DNA of 64,000 nt from Roseivivax sp. GX 12232 (lineage in GTDB: Bacteria > Pseudomonadota > Alphaproteobacteria > Rhodobacterales > Rhodobacteraceae): the NCBI RefSeq assembly GCF_021272185.1, contig NZ_JAJSEC010000006.1, positions 124,001-188,000 on the forward strand, given 5' to 3'. The notes under the pieces are model-generated. The model ran no database searches and was not told the origin of the DNA. It was given only the letters and a program-made list of their open reading frames with translations. Of the stretch, positions 6,353 through 32,728 are shown piece after piece (positions within the stretch are counted from its first letter, which is position 1; each line of letters starts with the position of its first letter). The position numbers were made by a program, and so were the translations under genes.

Positions 6353-7375
6353 TCAGGCCTTCTTCAGCACCCGGTTGCCCAGGGTCTCGGCGATCTGAAC
6401 CGCGTTCAGCGCCGCGCCCTTGCGCAGGTTGTCCGAGACGCACCAGAAGTTCAGACCGTTCTCGATGGTCGAATCCTGCCGGATGCGGCTGATGAAGGTG
6501 GCGAAATCGCCGACGCATTCGACCGGCGTGACGTAGCCGCCGTCCTCGCGCTTGTCGATCACCATGATGCCGGGCGCCTCGCGCAGGATGTCGCGGGCCT
6601 CGTCCTCGTCGAGGAACTCCTCGGTCTCGATGTTGATCGCCTCGGCGTGGCCGACGAAGACCGGCACGCGCACGCAGGTCGCGGTCAGCTTGATCGAGCT
6701 GTCGACGATCTTCTTGGTCTCGGCGACCATCTTCCACTCTTCCTTGGTGGAACCGTCCTCGAGGAAGACGTCGATATGCGGGATCACGTTGAAGGCGATC
6801 TGCTTGGGATAGACCTTGGGCTTCACCTCGTCGGTGGGGTTGTAGACCGCCTTGGTCTGGTCCCAGAGCTCGTCCATGGCGTCCTTGCCCGAGCCCGAGA
6901 CCGACTGGTAGGTCGAGACCACCACGCGCTTGATCTTGGCGCGGTCGTGCAGCGGCTTCAGCGCCACCACCATCTGCGCGGTCGAGCAGTTGGGGTTGGC
7001 GATGATGTTCTTCTTGGCATAGCCCTCGACGGCCTCGGGGTTCACCTCGGGCACGATCAGCGGCACGTCCGGGTCGTAGCGGTAGAGCGAGGAGTTATCG
7101 ATCACCACGCAGCCCGCCTCGGCGGCCTTGGGGGCGTATTTCTTCGTGGCGTCCGAGCCGATGGCGAAGAGCGCCATGTCCCAGCCGGTGAAGTCGAAGG
7201 TGTCGAGGTCCTGGGTCTTCAGCGTCTGGTCCCCGAAGCTGACCTCGGTGCCGAGCGAGCGGCGCGAGGCCAGAACGGCCAGCTCGTCGACCGGAAACTC
7301 GCGCTCGGCGAGGATGTTCAGCATTTCGCGGCCCACGTTGCCGGTGGCGCCGACGACGGCGATTCTATAGCCCAT
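6353..7375 (-). CDS. asd: Aspartate-semialdehyde dehydrogenase
   Basis: A 340-residue enzyme that reduces aspartyl phosphate to aspartate semialdehyde with NADPH, the branch point to lysine/diaminopimelate, threonine and methionine. It shows the nucleotide-binding loop GATGNVG (9-15), the catalytic cysteine in NPNCST (Cys130) and the substrate region VPVFVGHAEAIN. Full length. It stands as a single gene with its own terminator. Two further genes of the same pathway (dapD, dapE) lie downstream in the window, but not in one operon. Confidence 0.96.
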   Translation of the reverse strand: MGYRIAVVGATGNVGREMLNILAEREFPVDELAVLASRRSLGTEVSFGDQTLKTQDLDTFDFTGWDMALFAIGSDATKKYAPKAAEAGCVVIDNSSLYRYDPDVPLIVPEVNPEAVEGYAKKNIIANPNCSTAQMVVALKPLHDRAKIKRVVVSTYQSVSGSGKDAMDELWDQTKAVYNPTDEVKPKVYPKQIAFNVIPHIDVFLEDGSTKEEWKMVAETKKIVDSSIKLTATCVRVPVFVGHAEAINIETEEFLDEDEARDILREAPGIMVIDKREDGGYVTPVECVGDFATFISRIRQDSTIENGLNFWCVSDNLRKGAALNAVQIAETLGNRVLKKA

Positions 7376-7465
7376 CAGATCCCTCCTTGGGTCTTGGCTT
7401 CGGTCAGGTCCGGGCGGCGTGCCCGGCGCGAGATTGGCGCGCTAACTAGCGCAGCCGGGGGCGGA

Positions 7466-7494
7466 CGGAAAGGGGGCACCGACGCGGCGCCCCC
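7466..7494 (-). terminator. Putative terminator of the LOG-family gene
   Basis: GGGGGC (7472-7477) pairs with GCCCCC (7489-7494), and inner CCG/CGG bases can extend the stem. Read on the minus strand it is followed by CCTTTCCG. It lies 16 bp beyond the stop codon of the LOG-family gene. The U-run is short, so this is a weaker case than the asd terminator. Confidence 0.5.
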
Positions 7495-7509
7495 GCTCCG
7501 GAGCTTTGT

Positions 7510-8352
7510 TCAGCGGTCGGGAATGCGGTCGCGGGCCGGCTCGACGGGCCATTTCGCGATCTCCTCGAGCGCCTCGTCGGCGGTCTCGACGAAGCGGAAC
7601 AGCTCGAGGTCCTCGGCCCCGATGGTGCCCGCCTCGGCCAGCGCCTCCCAGTCGACGATGCGGCGCCAGAATTCCTCGCCGAAGAGCAGCACCGGCATCC
7701 GGTTCATCCGCCCGGTCTGGATCAGCGTCAGCGCCTCGAAGAGCTCGTCGAGCGTGCCGAAGCCGCCGGGGAAGACGCAGACCGCGCGGGCGCGCATCAG
7801 GAAGTGCATCTTGCGCAGCGCGAAGTAATGGAAGTTGAAGGCCAGCTCGGGCGTCACGTATTCGTTCGGCGCCTGTTCGTGCGGCAGCACGATGTTGAGC
7901 CCGATCGAGCGGCCGCCGGCCTCTTCGGCGCCGCGGTTGCCGGCCTCCATGACGCCGGGGCCGCCGCCGGTCACGATCACGTCGCGCCCGCCCAGGTGTT
8001 CGAGCGAATATTCCGTCATCCGCCGGGAGAAGACGCGGGCCTCCTCGTAGTATTTCGACAGATCCGCCAGCGTCTTGGTCCGGGCCTTGTCGCGCTGGTC
8101 GGGCGCGGGGATGCGGGCACCGCCGAATAGCACCACGGTGGTCTCGATCCCGGCCTCGTCGAGCAGCATCTCGGGCTTCAGGAGTTCGAGCTGCAGCCGC
8201 ACCGGGCGCAGCTCGGGCCGGCAGAGGAAATCGTCGTCGGTAAAGGCGAGTCTATAGGCCGGCGAGCGCGTCTGCGGCGTGTCCGGCACCTCGCGGGCGG
8301 CCTTGCGGTCGCGCCCGGCGTCGCGGAACTGGGTCTTGCGTCTGTCCTTCAT
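7510..8352 (-). CDS. LOG-family protein (TIGR00730 Rossmann fold)
   Basis: A 280-residue protein of the LOG family, once labelled lysine decarboxylase. Related enzymes cleave the N-glycosidic bond of nucleoside 5'-monophosphates, such as cytokinin ribotides. The hallmark motifs are GGGPGVMEAGNRG (129-141) and PGGFGTLDE (195-203). A polar N-terminal extension of about 50 residues makes it longer than the compact plant-type LOG proteins. Its physiological substrate here is unknown. It is divergent from dapD with a repeat element in between. Confidence 0.88.
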   Translation of the reverse strand: MKDRRKTQFRDAGRDRKAAREVPDTPQTRSPAYRLAFTDDDFLCRPELRPVRLQLELLKPEMLLDEAGIETTVVLFGGARIPAPDQRDKARTKTLADLSKYYEEARVFSRRMTEYSLEHLGGRDVIVTGGGPGVMEAGNRGAEEAGGRSIGLNIVLPHEQAPNEYVTPELAFNFHYFALRKMHFLMRARAVCVFPGGFGTLDELFEALTLIQTGRMNRMPVLLFGEEFWRRIVDWEALAEAGTIGAEDLELFRFVETADEALEEIAKWPVEPARDRIPDR

Positions 8353-23990: not shown

Positions 23991-27374
<3,384 letters not shown>

Positions 27375-27548: not shown

Positions 27549-27592
27549 TGTCAATTTATTATGACACTCGAATCTGTCTATCGGTCTATACT
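27549..27592 (+). promoter_or_regulatory. PpsR/CrtJ-type box and -10-like element before the V4R gene
   Basis: TGTCAATTTATTATGACA (27549-27566) fits the TGT-N12-ACA site bound by PpsR/CrtJ, the oxygen- and light-responsive repressor of photosynthesis genes, and its ends TGTCA/TGACA form a perfect inverted repeat. TATACT (27587-27592) is a possible -10 element, so the box would cover the -35 region and block RNA polymerase. The gap 27375-27663 holds no other feature. The site is short and could be chance, but its position before a bchJ-like gene supports it. Confidence 0.6.
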
Positions 27593-27663
27593 TTCCCGGA
27601 CGCATGGGACACCTAAGCAGGCGTCATCGCAACCCGGACCGCTTCTTTGAAGGGAGAAGCCAC

Positions 27664-28269
27664 ATGGCCACCGTCCTCGAACCGCCTCAATCGCCGTCTC
27701 GTCAGGCGCGCTTGATGGGTGCGAACATGGTGGCGCCGTTGCATGCCGTGCTGGAGCGGCACGTCTCCAAGGCCGATCGCGACGCGGTCTTCGCCGAGGC
27801 CGGGCTCGAAGACCTTCCCGCCGAGGACAGCCTTCTGCCCGAGGGCCAGGTCGCCTTCCTGCACCGCCGGGTGCGCGAGAACTGGCCCGAGGCCGCCGAC
27901 GAGGTCCTGGACACCGCCGGGCGCGTGGCCGCCGAGGTCTTCGTGACCGAGCGCATCCCGCCCAAGGCCCGGCTTCTGTTGCAGAACATGCCCTGGTCGG
28001 TCTCGGCCTGGCTGGTCGGCAAGTCGATCCGGCTCAACTCCGAGACCTTCGCGGGCTCGGGGCTCTTCGCGATCCAGACCACCAGCCGCTTCGCGATGTT
28101 CCAGAACCCGCTGGCGACCGGCATCGAGGCCGAACGGCCGATCTGCCAGTTCTACGCCGCGCTCTTCGAGCACACGCTGCAGCGGCTGTCGCACCGCGAT
28201 TTCATCTGCCGCGAGACGCATTGCCAGGCGACCGGGCACGGGCACTGCGTGTTCGAGGTGACGCTTTGA
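27664..28269 (+). CDS. bchJ: BchJ-like V4R domain protein (bacteriochlorophyll synthesis related)
   Basis: A 201-residue protein resembling BchJ, named for 4-vinyl reduction in bacteriochlorophyll synthesis (its role as the actual reductase is disputed; BciA/BchXYZ-type enzymes do this in other systems). The C-terminal V4R domain spans about residues 110-200, with FAGSGLFAIQTTSRFAMFQN and a final cysteine/histidine cluster (CRETHCQATGHGHC) able to bind a metal. AGGGAGA precedes the ATG at 27664. It is a lone gene with a PpsR-type box upstream. The gene symbol is by similarity only; a general V4R regulator or tetrapyrrole-binding protein is the alternative. Confidence 0.7.
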   Translation: MATVLEPPQSPSRQARLMGANMVAPLHAVLERHVSKADRDAVFAEAGLEDLPAEDSLLPEGQVAFLHRRVRENWPEAADEVLDTAGRVAAEVFVTERIPPKARLLLQNMPWSVSAWLVGKSIRLNSETFAGSGLFAIQTTSRFAMFQNPLATGIEAERPICQFYAALFEHTLQRLSHRDFICRETHCQATGHGHCVFEVTL

Positions 28270-28295: not shown

Positions 28296-28363
28296 GGCTG
28301 ATGGCTGATGGCTGATGGCTGATGGCTGATGGCTGATGGCTGATGGCTGATGGCTGATGGCTG
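28296..28363. repeat. Heptanucleotide tandem repeat (GGCTGAT)9
   Basis: Nine exact head-to-tail copies of GGCTGAT (28296-28358) and a partial tenth lie just after the V4R gene. Exact repetition of a 7-base unit suggests slipped-strand variability. The gap 28270-29264 contains this tract and three copies of the 169-bp repeat but no gene. Confidence 0.95.
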
Positions 28364-28508
28364 GGATTGAGGCCGCTCCGGTGGCCATTGCCAAGCGCAC
28401 ATCCGAGCTTTGAACGCCACGCCCCCCACCGGACAACGCACCCCGACGCTCGACCCGCTCACGCGCCCCAAGCACAAACCCACCCAACACCCTCTCCACA
28501 TGCCCCAC

Positions 28509-28677
28509 CAGAGGGCGCGCGCAGGACCGGGGGCCGGCGCCACCGACTGTTGAGCGGCGCGCTTTATCCCAACAAAGTCAGGACTAGCGATGATCTAAGC
28601 GCATCGCCCACAAGAGCGCCGGCCCTAGGGGCCGGTCCGGCGCGCGCCCGGCACCTTCGGTGCTGTTCGGGCGCAAG
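28509..28677 (+). repeat. 169-bp structured intergenic repeat, copy C
   Basis: Copy C, forward. Hairpin 2 has loop TAG; hairpin 3 has the GCACC/GGTGC version. An outer stem CCCTCT (28490-28495) with AGAGGG (28510-28515) is also present. It is the first of three copies in the convergent gap between the V4R gene and the cfa-like gene. Confidence 0.92.
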
Positions 28678-28825
28678 GCGGCGCAACAATGCCAAAGATC
28701 AGGGAGAAATACGTCGAGGTTGTGGTCCGCGTGGAAGATGCTGGTGATTGCTTAGAATTAGGCGGAGCCGAGGAACAGGCTCCCAGCCGCTGCGTACAGC
28801 CGTCTGCCCTCTCCACCAGCACCTA

Positions 28826-28994
28826 CAGAGGGCGCGCGCCGGGCCGGGGGCCGGCGCTGCCGACTGCCGAGCGGCGCGCTTTATCCCAGCAAGGTCAGGG
28901 CTAGCGATGATTTAAGCGCATCGCCCACAAGAGCGCCGGCCCAAGGGGCCGGTCCGGCGCGCGCCCGGCATCTTCGATGCTGTTCGGGCGCAAG
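28826..28994 (+). repeat. 169-bp structured intergenic repeat, copy D
   Basis: Copy D, forward. Hairpin 2 loop is AAG; hairpin 3 has GCATC/GATGC. The outer CCCTCT/AGAGGG stem is present. Upstream it shares CTGCCCTCTCCACCAGCAC with copy E, so D and E look like a local duplication with a 260-bp step. Confidence 0.92.
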
Positions 28995-29085
28995 AGGCGC
29001 GGGCTGGAACGGAACGCGCTGGGGCGGGCAGTTGGCCAGCAAGGCTCGCGCAGTGATCATCCCGCTGCCCTCTCCACCAGCACTA

Positions 29086-29254
29086 CAGAGGGCGCGCGCC
29101 GGGCCGGGGGCCGGCGCTTCCGACTATCGAGCGGCGCACTTTATCCCTGCAAGGTCAGGACTAGCGATGATTTAAGCGCACCACCCGCAGGAGCGCCGGC
29201 CCAAGGGGCCGGTCCGGCGCGCGCCCGGCACCTTCGGTGCTATTCGGGCGCCAG
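29086..29254 (+). repeat. 169-bp structured intergenic repeat, copy E
   Basis: Copy E, forward. Hairpin 3 has GCACC/GGTGC and the outer CCCTCT/AGAGGG stem is kept with a 13-nt loop. It ends 11 bp from the stop codon of the convergent cfa-like gene. The left arm of hairpin 1 carries GGGCC where most copies have GGACC, as in copy D. Confidence 0.92.
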
Positions 29255-29264
29255 AAGAAGCCCC

Positions 29265-30518
29265 CTACTCCGCCGCCTGCCGGGTCCGGCCGTGGCGGCG
29301 CGCGCCCCGTTCTCCGGGCGGTTCGGCCAGATAATCCCGGGTCACCGGCACGGCGGCGTGTTCCTTGGTCAGCTGGAAGTGGAACACCCCCTGGCGCTGC
29401 TCCTCGAAGGCGGTCTCGCAGGCCGCCAGGTAGAAGCGGAACATCCGCACGAAGCGGTCGTCGTGCATCTCTCGGATGCGGTCGCGGCTGGCCTCGAAGC
29501 GCTGGCGCCAGTGGCGAATCGTCCAGGCGTAATGCAGCCGCAGGACCTCGATGTCGGCCATCCAGAGGCCCGCCCGTTCGATCTCGGGGGCGAGGTCGGA
29601 CATCGCGGGCACATAGCCGCCGGGGAAGATATATTTCGCCAGCCAGGGCGAGGTCGGCGAGGGCGGGCTCGACAGCCCGATGGTGTGGATCAGCGCCACG
29701 CCCTCGGGGGCAAGCAGCTCCGAGACCTTGCGGAAATAGGTGCGGAACTGCGGCCGGCCGACATGCTCCAGCATGCCGACGCTGACGATCCGGTCGAAGC
29801 TGTCACGCACGTCGCGGTAATCCTGCAGCCGGAACTCCACCCGGTCCGCGAGCCCCGCCGCCTCGGCGCGGGCCTGCGCGGTGGCCAGCTGGTTCTGCGA
29901 AAGCGTCACCCCCAGAACCCGCGCGCCATGATCCCGCGCGAGCGTCAGCGCCATGCCGCCCCAGCCGCAGCCGATGTCGAGCACCCGCATCCCCGGCTCG
30001 AGCCGGAGCTTGCGCGCGATCAGCGCCTTCTTGGCCTCCTGCGCGGCCTCGAGGCTCATCTCGGGGTCGGTGAAATAGGCGCAGGAATACTGCATGTCGG
30101 CATCGAGAAAGAGCCGGTAGAGATCGTCCGAGATGTCGTAGTGATGCGCCACATTGGCCCGGGCGGTGAGCGGCGTGTTGCGCTGCAGGAAGACCGAGAG
30201 CGCCATGCGCGCGCTGTTCAGGGTCTCGATCCAGGCGGGCATCCTTCCGCCGCGCTCGCGGGCGCGCTGCAGAAGCCCGAGCGCGGGGTTCAGCATCTCG
30301 TCGGCGATCTCGATCCGGCCGTCCATGTAGCCCTCGCCCAGCGCCAGCACCGGGCTCAGGCAAAGCGCCCGGACGATGCCAGGGTCCTTGAGGCGCAGGC
30401 TGGCGCGCGGCGGCTCATCGGCGCCGTAGCGCGTTTCGCTGCCGTCGGGCCAGGTGACGCGCAGATCGCCCAGCGTCACCAGGCGGCGCAGCATGTCGTT
30501 CAGAATACGGTCCCACAT
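29265..30518 (-). CDS. Cyclopropane-fatty-acyl-phospholipid synthase family methyltransferase
   Basis: A 417-residue SAM-dependent enzyme of the CfaS type, which adds a methylene group across a cis double bond of phospholipid acyl chains. The SAM-binding motif is VLDIGCGWGGMAL, and VAHHYDISDDLYRLFLDADM with the QYSCAYF stretch is characteristic of the family. The N-terminal domain (1-130) fits the lipid-binding part. GGGGAGGCGACG gives a good ribosome site before the ATG at 30518. It is divergent from aspS. Confidence 0.9.
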   Translation of the reverse strand: MWDRILNDMLRRLVTLGDLRVTWPDGSETRYGADEPPRASLRLKDPGIVRALCLSPVLALGEGYMDGRIEIADEMLNPALGLLQRARERGGRMPAWIETLNSARMALSVFLQRNTPLTARANVAHHYDISDDLYRLFLDADMQYSCAYFTDPEMSLEAAQEAKKALIARKLRLEPGMRVLDIGCGWGGMALTLARDHGARVLGVTLSQNQLATAQARAEAAGLADRVEFRLQDYRDVRDSFDRIVSVGMLEHVGRPQFRTYFRKVSELLAPEGVALIHTIGLSSPPSPTSPWLAKYIFPGGYVPAMSDLAPEIERAGLWMADIEVLRLHYAWTIRHWRQRFEASRDRIREMHDDRFVRMFRFYLAACETAFEEQRQGVFHFQLTKEHAAVPVTRDYLAEPPGERGARRHGRTRQAAE

Positions 30519-30946: not shown

Positions 30947-32728
30947 ATGCACGCCTATCGCAGCCAGACCTGCGCCGATCTTCGCAAAGAGCACGTGGGC
31001 CAGGAGGTCCGGCTTTCCGGCTGGGTCCACCGCATCCGCGACCATGGCGGCGTTCTCTTCGTCGACCTGCGCGACCACTACGGCATGACGCAGGTGCTCT
31101 GCGATCCCGACAGCCCGGTCTTCGCCGAGGTCGAGCGCCTGCGCTCGGAGTGGTGCGTCAAGATCGACGGCGTGGTGAAGGCCCGCGACGAGAGCCTGGT
31201 GAACCCCAAGCTGCCGACCGGCGCGATCGAGGTCTACATCCGCGACATCGAGGTGCTCGGCGCCTCCGAGGAGCTGCCGCTGATCGTCTTCGGCGACCAG
31301 GAATACCCCGAGGAGACCCGCCTGCGGTATCGCTACCTCGACCTGCGGCGCGAGGTCATGCAGCAGAACATGGTGCTGCGCTCGGATGTGGTGGCCTCGA
31401 TCCGGCGGCGGATGTGGGAGCAGGACTTCCGCGAATACCAGACCCCGATCATCACCGCCTCGAGCCCCGAGGGCGCGCGCGACTTCCTGGTGCCCTCGCG
31501 GCTGCACCCGGGCAAGTTCTACGCGCTGCCCCAGGCCCCGCAGCAGTTCAAGCAGCTGATCATGGTCTCGGGCTTCGACAAGTATTTCCAGATCGCGCCC
31601 TGTTTCCGCGACGAGGACCCGCGCGCCGACCGCTCGCCCACCGACTTCTACCAGCTCGACATGGAGATGAGCTTCGTCGAGCAGCAGGACGTCTTCGACA
31701 CGATCTCTCCGGTGATCGCCGGCGTGTTCGAGGAGTTCGGCGGCTCGGCCAAGGTCGACAAGCCCGAGGACTGGCCGCAGATCTCCTATGCGGATGCGGC
31801 GCTCTGGTATGGCACCGACAAGCCGGACCTGCGCAACCCGATCAAGATGCAGGTGGTCTCGGACCACTTCCGCGGCTCGGGCTTCGCGATCTTCGCCAAG
31901 CTCCTCGAGCAGGAAGGCACCGAAATCCGCGCGATCCCCGCGCCCACGGGCGGCAGCCGCAAGTTCTGCGACCGGATGAACGCCTTCGCCCAGAAGGAAG
32001 GGCTGCCGGGCATGGGCTACATCTTCTGGCGCGACAAGGACGGCGAGACCGAGGCCGCCGGCCCGCTGGCCAAGAACATCGGGCCCGAGCGCACCGAGGC
32101 GATCCGCCAGCAGCTCGGCCTGGGTGTCGGCGACGCGGCCTTCTTCCTGGGCGGCAAGCCCAAGGACTTCGAGCGTGTCGCGGGCAAGGCCCGGGTCACC
32201 ATCGGCGAAGAGCTCGGCCTGACCGAGGCGGACCGCTATGCCTTCGCCTGGATCGTCGACTTCCCGATGTACGAGGCCGACGAGGACTCGGGCGAGATCG
32301 ACTTCAGCCACAACCCCTTCTCGATGCCGCAGGGCGGGATGGAAGCGCTGGAGGCCGACCCGCTCAGCGTCAAGGGCTACCAGTACGACCTGGCCTGCAA
32401 CGGCTACGAGCTGGTCTCGGGCGCGATCCGGAACCACAAGCCCGAGATCATGTTCCGCGCCTTCGAGCTGGCCGGCTACGGCGAGGAAGAGGTGCGCAAG
32501 CGCTTCGGCGGCATGGTCAACGCCTTCCGCTTCGGCGCGCCTCCGCATGGCGGCTGCGCGGCGGGCATCGACCGGATCGTCATGCTGCTCGCGGGCGAGG
32601 ACAACATCCGCGAGGTCATCATGTTCCCGATGAACCAGCGCGCCGAGGACCTGATGATGGGCGCCCCCTCGGAGCCCACCAGCGACCAGCTCATGGAGCT
32701 GCGCCTGCGGGTGATGCCCGAGGAGTGA
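30947..32728 (+). CDS. aspS: Aspartyl-tRNA synthetase
   Basis: A 593-residue class II synthetase. It has the N-terminal OB-fold anticodon-binding domain (about 15-100), motif 2 ([20 protein letters not shown]), the bacterial GAD insertion (about 290-420) and motif 3 ([20 protein letters not shown]). The bacterial length and GAD domain indicate the type found in alphaproteobacteria; whether it is discriminating or also charges tRNA-Asn depends on gatCAB, which is not in the window. Confidence 0.97.

Follow-up and report, generated by a model that had tools for sequence, protein, structure and literature searches.

How does a gene of the BchJ type come to stand alone behind what looks like an operator of its own, far from the photosynthesis gene cluster (PGC) of its genome, and what might its product do there? 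The question is raised by a locus of Roseivivax sp. GX 12232 (Rhodobacteraceae), contained in a stretch of 64,000 nucleotides of contig NZ_JAJSEC010000006.1 that is called the window below. A preliminary description, drawn from the letters of the DNA, had noticed there a TGT-N12-ACA site with TGTCA/TGACA ends upstream of a BchJ-like V4R gene, and had taken the latter for a stand-alone bchJ remaining in the PpsR regulon. Both the site and the type of gene are borne out by the present analysis. The identity of the gene needs to be revised.

The operator and its gene

The site lies 97 bp before an open reading frame (table 1), the product of which is matched by the NCBIfam BchJ model TIGR02019 with 101 bits (cut-off, 74.3) and by the Pfam V4R model with 56.1 bits (gathering score, 31). 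V4R is the sole Pfam match of the protein at E ≤ 0.001, which is without an FrhB-type (BciB) or other reductase domain. A start at position 27664, giving 201 codons, is most likely, because it is preceded by the AGGGAG element and because the open frame of relative G202 begins at the aligned ATG. The TATACT inside the second, imperfect box is a possible −10 element; the consensus promoter scan called no plus-strand promoter at the box and only a weak minus-strand site. As the preliminary description had it, no other photosynthesis protein was recognized among the 50 gene calls of the window, which were made with a codon-usage script of our own and judged by eye.

Two repeats were observed downstream. 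Shortly after the stop of the gene, at 28296–28363, a GGCTGAT unit of 7 bp is present in 9.7 perfect copies, and between the gene and the cfa-like gene, at 28490–29254, a 188-bp unit occurs as three direct repeats, in which copies two and three are 90% and 83% like copy one.

Table 1. Coordinates of the features of the locus, numbered along the window.
Feature	Position	Strand	Description and basis
PpsR-type operator TGTCAATTTATTATGACA	27549-27566	.	TGTCA-N8-TGACA ends; predicted site, read from sequence
Second, imperfect box TGTCTATCGGTCTATACT	27575-27592	+	TGT-N12-ACT; 8 bp past the first box
RBS-like AGGGAG	27651-27656	+	purine-rich; direct sequence reading
bchJ2	27664-28269	+	201-residue BchJ-type V4R protein; Pfam, NCBIfam, AF2 model, alignment
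carB	23991-27374	-	divergent neighbour, conserved; named from sequence
cfa-like methyltransferase gene	29265-30518	-	frequent neighbour; named from sequence
aspS	30947-32728	+	conserved neighbour; named from sequence

Phototrophy genes of the host and rarity of the box

The host had been predicted to be, or to descend from, an aerobic anoxygenic phototroph, to be checked by looking for a PGC and for ppsR, and both are present. The genome (38 contigs, 99.7% complete, 4.12 Mb) carries on contig C36, far from the gene of the window, a PGC of approximately 47 kb (with bounds set by us), inside which ppsR is found with a score of 421.7 bits (cut-off, 275.4). Matches over the NCBIfam cut-offs were obtained for hemA, acsF, bchL, bchB, bchN, bchF, bchG and bchP, for crtD, crtC, crtB, crtI, crtA, bchI, bchD (NF009943) and bchO, and for dxs, pufC, pufM, pufL, bchZ, bchX, bchC, puhA and bchM. 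Other genes, among them bchH, bchY, crtE, crtF, idi, aerR, pufQ and puhB/C/E, were named by reading their sequences; NCBIfam matches of crtF, crtE and aerR are all sub-threshold, and idi gave none at 1e-40. Profile searches of the host genome yielded no BchE match, and no V4R protein other than the product of the window gene was found in it. By its gene content, with acsF and ppsR, the host thus has the set of an aerobic anoxygenic phototroph.

The loose pattern TGT-N12-ACA says little about the site. It occurs four times in the window where 2.7 occurrences are expected, and 230 times in the genome, where the reversed control pattern occurs 209 times, so that its count, showing no enrichment at either scale, was rejected as evidence. 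The strict form TGTCA-N8-TGACA is found at only four places in 4,120,283 bases, and the control pattern at none. Two of the places are promoter regions of the PGC, namely that between bchF and aerR-ppsR (C36:66102) and that between crtI and crtA (C36:91264), and the third is the site of the window. Within the PGC, 10 of the 13 TGT-N12-ACA sites (two of them overlapping) are intergenic, the intergenic DNA amounting to 2,515 bp; the flanks of the cluster contain none in 7,479 bp and one in 1,366 bp, and 15,856 bp of the window contain two, including the site at issue.

The fourth strict box (C1:525133–525150; L014:1501–1518) lies outside the PGC, 23 bp before a divergent, minus-strand frame of the FrhB family (L014:257–1477). 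The best solved relative of its product is 7-hydroxymethyl chlorophyll a reductase (E 1.1e-58), and its NCBIfam matches are sub-threshold F420 models only. By taking into account this relative, and the original annotation of Acaryochloris BciB as frhB (PMC4836224; papers are cited here and below from excerpts of their text), we infer that the frame is a bciB-like 8-vinyl reductase gene. With this reading, each of the four strict places adjoins a pigment or photosynthesis gene.

Two lineages of BchJ-type proteins

In the genus, the gene is present in eight of nine genomes, with 49–66% identity between the window protein and its relatives; of these eight, G198, G200 and G201 also contain a second BchJ, 34–37% identical; canonical BchJ copies at large share 29–40% identity with the window protein. 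A first sample of the family gave BchJ matches in 47 of 198 genomes, with two full copies in G165 and G181. In a first tree of 57 proteins, 44 of them canonical BchJ, the 13 copies from the carB locus form one group (support, 100/99); in a larger tree of 73 proteins, which includes seven BchJ from other families and, with three added, 47 canonical copies, the group consists of 18 carB-locus copies and the tandem copy of G344, with a support of 100/100, values to be read bearing in mind possible long-branch attraction for the fastest rows. G013 (a short V4R hit in a genome without ppsR) and G022 (a split match) were excluded from the trees, and canonical copies found later (e.g. L169–L175, L180 and L181) stand outside them. 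At least 19 members were recognized, among those hits of the two family samples (the second of 394 genomes) that were classed individually.

Proteins of both kinds occur together in eight genomes (G198, G200, G201, G165, G181, G415, G234 and G344). As judged from the separate clade and from these genomes with both copies, the gene of the window encodes a divergent second BchJ-type protein, here BchJ2, and its reading as a canonical bchJ left behind is not supported. A canonical bchJ displaced from the PGC was also considered, and rejected by the trees and by the same genomes. Of the earlier notion of a stand-alone bchJ remaining in the PpsR regulon, the regulatory half is supported, the box being kept in front of 15 of the 19 genes; the name does not, as the gene belongs to the BchJ2 clade, which coexists with canonical bchJ.

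BchJ2 branches inside the family, next to canonical BchJ copies some of which come from the same carB-aspS locus (support, 87/89), and this adjacency suggests an origin by local duplication of bchJ within the family; a tree in which all 47 family BchJ are held together was not rejected by the AU test (p = 0.28).

The locus in relatives

BchJ2 is found at the carB locus in 19 of 19 cases, and in 17 of them carB is its nearest recognized neighbour, the exceptions being G274, with about 5 kb in between, and G344, in which bchE-bchJ intervenes. On the far side there is usually aspS, often with the cfa-like gene too; aspS is in the same stretch in 18 of 19 cases, and in G181 it is on another contig. 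The neighbourhood rows on which these counts are based leave out the PGC stretches of the genus (L102–L117). BchJ2 stands apart from bchE in 16 of the 19, adjacent to it in G415 and G181, and one gene away in G344. The rows of G415 and G181 are labelled 'lone' although bchE follows, because bchJ2 stands before bchE with a box of its own. The order in G415 is carB-box-bchJ2-box-bchE-bchJ-aspS on a single contig (L162); in G181, carB, box, bchJ2 and bchE are on one contig and bchE, bchJ, cfa and aspS on another, the two breaking inside bchE; in G344 it is carB, bchE, bchJ, bchJ2; in G234, bchJ2 is at the carB locus and bchE-bchJ elsewhere. Canonical BchJ adjoins bchE in 45 of the 47 cases of the tree, the other two being G198, with a remnant, and G041, at a contig end. 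Among genomes with BchJ2 as their only BchJ, none of the eight searched (G000, the host, and G199, G202, G204, G205, G190, G145 and G032) has a BchE match over the cut-off; the search excluded G274, G316 and G262, and acsF was checked in the host only.

Three further loci show remains of genes. In G198 (L065/L179), a canonical bchJ lies beside a bchE remnant that covers positions 1–33 only of the BchE model (34.8 bits) and appears by tblastn as a 50% identical piece, in what reads as a snapshot of bchE loss. In G418 (L176, approx. 6362–6586), a BchJ fragment of 34.5 bits with two internal TGA codons, located between bchG and ppsR in a PGC, resembles a canonical bchJ that has decayed. In G274 (L163, approx. 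7235–7850), bchJ2 is immediately preceded by a number of PpsR-type boxes and by a second, short BchJ fragment.

A rival proposal, which extends the preliminary description, is that the window gene is a relic, namely that a carB-bchE-bchJ-aspS locus lost its bchE and that its orthologous, fast-evolving canonical bchJ kept the box of the former operon. Many relatives do have a canonical bchE-bchJ pair flanked by carB and aspS, bchE being often preceded by a box, and the remnant of G198, elsewhere in its genome, shows bchE decaying beside a canonical bchJ. However, the proposal is already refuted in the eight genomes with both types, of which G415 has both on one contig, and the full support of the BchJ2 clade argues against it, so that we regard it as unlikely for the window as well.

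Conservation of the operator

Within 300 bp upstream of the 19 BchJ2 genes, TGT-N12-ACA is found in 15 cases against 0.81 expected from dinucleotide shuffles, and the tighter TGT[CA]A-N8-T[GT]ACA occurs at least once in each of the same 15, against an expectation of 0.013. Eleven of the 15 have the exact TGTCA-N8-TGACA. Homologues without the box had been named beforehand as a finding that would speak against the preliminary reading, and there are four: none was found within that distance in G205, G165, G234 and G344. A second site follows the first at 8 bp in the window (ending in ACT), in G202 (ending in ACA) and in G204 (ending in ACT), at 7 bp in G200 and at 15 bp in G201. Pairs of PpsR sites spaced by 8 or 9 bp have been described in Rubrivivax (PMC4452267), and TGT-N12-ACA sites that overlap promoter elements in Dinoroseobacter shibae (PMC10890935). 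PpsR control of bchJ2 is well supported at the level of sequence, since the box, its conservation and the ppsR gene of the genome all point to repression by PpsR.

It could be objected that the palindrome of the box arose by chance, or that the box belongs to carB or to a regulator other than PpsR, and that the gene behind it is decaying. The absence of genome-wide enrichment of the loose motif and the four orthologues without a box would fit such a view, as would, for decay, the high divergence within the genus. Against it are the rarity of the strict form, the pigment-gene company in which it is found and its conservation in 15 of 19 genes, together with the signs of selection described below (dN/dS below 0.5 and frames free of stops), and we consider it very improbable.

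Fold, presumed zinc ligands and selection

The AF2 model of BchJ2 (mean pLDDT, 91.4) describes the whole protein as one domain. Its best solved matches are an H-NOX domain (Z 12.6 over 164 residues, 3.5 Å) and TRAPP Bet3 (Z 12.3), followed by the phenol-sensing domains of DmpR (Z 11.7), PoxR (11.6) and MopR (11.5), with the proviso that Z values under about 13 can reflect a common arrangement of helical folds and that a shared fold shows no ligand. The model of canonical BchJ (pLDDT, 95.4) matches the same fold families with Z up to 13.6, so that the fold characterizes BchJ proteins at large and does not set BchJ2 apart. By sequence, the only PDB chain found at E < 1 is that of MJ1460 (2osd; E 0.0065 for the window protein and 0.0013 for the profile); MopR appears at E 1.1, aligned over an E-x2-C-x7-C motif. 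The presumed zinc ligands are C161, E184, C187 and C195, which are kept in 18, 19, 18 and 19 of the 19 BchJ2 and, as their equivalents, in 46, 44, 47 and 47 of the 47 BchJ. Their spacing, C-x22-E-x2-C-x7-C, is what we take to be that of the zinc site of MopR, and BchJ2 probably contains a structural zinc.

These likenesses raise the possibility that BchJ2 is a V4R sensor that would bind a tetrapyrrole intermediate and report the state of the pathway to another protein. The predicted fold matches both the phenol-sensing domains and the H-NOX gas sensors, and the motif that aligns to MopR is conserved. Against it, the protein is a single domain, no DNA-binding or output domain was found, and the matching of the same folds by canonical BchJ means that the fold cannot separate a sensor from a carrier. 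A sensor role is rather unlikely on balance.

The reading frames of all BchJ2 copies translated are free of stops. Values of dN/dS were 0.11–0.49 in seven BchJ2 pairs and 0.35 and 0.54 in two canonical pairs, and are rough because dS is high (0.74–1.26). They indicate a purifying selection that is not strong.

Distribution and proposed role

In the second family sample, of 394 genomes, a BchJ or BchJ2 match was obtained in 86 and ppsR over its cut-off in 164. When PpsR matches at E < 1e-30 are considered, ppsR is present in 85 of the 86, and 82 of 167 ppsR-bearing genomes have no BchJ of either kind, a figure weaker than one from the 198-genome sample because only part of the first-look candidates was scored (up to eight per genome for BchJ and four for PpsR). 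The exception among the 86 is G013, in which a weak, C-terminal BchJ-like match of 27.3 bits (L088) is found in a genome without a PpsR match. In G203, of the same genus and with ppsR, no BchJ, BchJ2 or BchE was found. The function of BchJ and BchJ2 appears to be tied to phototrophy, yet dispensable or replaceable, given these 82 genomes and G203.

As reported for canonical BchJ in excerpts of several papers, a bchJ mutant of R. sphaeroides forms small amounts of bacteriochlorophyll and builds up 8-vinyl-protochlorophyllide; BchJ itself is not the vinyl reductase, chlorophyllide reductase is apparently stimulated by it, and a role as carrier, scaffold or chaperone has been discussed (PMC4432870, PMC7242693, PMC3931815). 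The NCBIfam description of TIGR02019, 'bacteriochlorophyll 4-vinyl reductase', would make BchJ2 a C8(4)-vinyl reductase. A bchJ mutant of Chlorobaculum still makes 8-ethyl pigment (PMC4432870), R. sphaeroides BchJ produced in E. coli had no reductase activity (PMC3931815), as far as the excerpts go, and the host has a separate, boxed bciB-like gene. On these grounds a vinyl-reductase function of BchJ2 was rejected as scarcely credible. NCBIfam would nevertheless give BchJ2 that name, in a genome with a more plausible candidate for the reductase gene.

The reading that we consider probable is that bchJ2 is a PpsR-repressed gene for a non-catalytic, tetrapyrrole-handling accessory of bacteriochlorophyll a synthesis, which replaces BchJ in lineages devoid of bchE-bchJ; we infer the accessory role, the binding of pigment, the binding of PpsR and the replacement of BchJ alike. 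Under oxygen or light conditions that demand repression, PpsR would occupy the bchJ2 operator, from which it would be released along with the rest of its regulon, so that BchJ2 would be made alongside the enzymes of the pathway. Modelled on the proposals for BchJ, it would probably hold a tetrapyrrole intermediate or bridge enzymes, as a carrier, scaffold or chaperone, and could stand in for BchJ where the anaerobic bchE-bchJ pair is lost and pigment is made via the oxygen-dependent AcsF. The effect of BchJ2 may be mild, since BciA was unaffected when BchJ was expressed with it in E. coli (PMC3931815) and a D. shibae bchJ insertion was still pink, with bacteriochlorophyll (PMC10890935), according to the excerpted text.

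A more tentative extension, which is possible without being what we expect, is that BchJ2 is the BchJ of the aerobic route, a tetrapyrrole carrier split from the bchE-linked BchJ and tuned to the AcsF/BciB pathway. If true, aerobic anoxygenic phototrophs could discard the anaerobic bchE-bchJ, and BchJ would be a general H-NOX-like porphyrin chaperone, with two forms partnering two cyclases.

The role of BchJ is still called unclear in the excerpts of a 2025 review (PMC12654162), and BchJ2, retained behind a box of the PpsR type by species that have no bchE, provides a natural comparison by which the need for BchJ could be judged. It is also likely that the PpsR regulon extends to scattered single genes, namely bchJ2 and the bciB-like gene.

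Comparison with known systems

Among the literature matches listed, and in the excerpts of the open literature cited here, a second BchJ lineage was neither found described nor named, and no paper was found that links bchJ with V4R. The sensors MopR, PoxR and DmpR share with BchJ2 the predicted fold and the E-x2-C-x7-C motif; BchJ2 differs from them in being without an AAA+ or DNA-binding part, and its sequence similarity to them is marginal. The archaeal V4R protein MJ1460 matches BchJ2 over the C-terminal 54 residues only. Along nearly its full length, the model finds its best structural counterparts in H-NOX haem domains, including that of the beta subunit of soluble guanylate cyclase; in this comparison of folds, the predicted one resembles a porphyrin-binding fold at approximately 10% identity. 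The hallmarks of H-NOX domains are a proximal haem histidine and a YxSxR motif.

The closest relative is canonical BchJ (TIGR02019), with which BchJ2 shares homology over the whole length, the fold class, the presumed zinc ligands, a PpsR-type box at the locus and a near confinement to ppsR-bearing genomes (85 of 86). BchJ2 differs from it in forming a separate clade, in having a box of its own, in standing mostly apart from bchE and in being retained by genomes from which the bchE-bchJ pair has disappeared. Excerpts of PMC6052148 and PMC12654162 already report that, in phototrophs of the Rhodobacterales, the bchE-bchJ pair is separate from the PGC or has been lost. The carB-aspS locus is common to many such canonical pairs outside the PGC; loci of the type of Dshi_2636/2637 represent the canonical pair, whereas BchJ2 is an additional gene.
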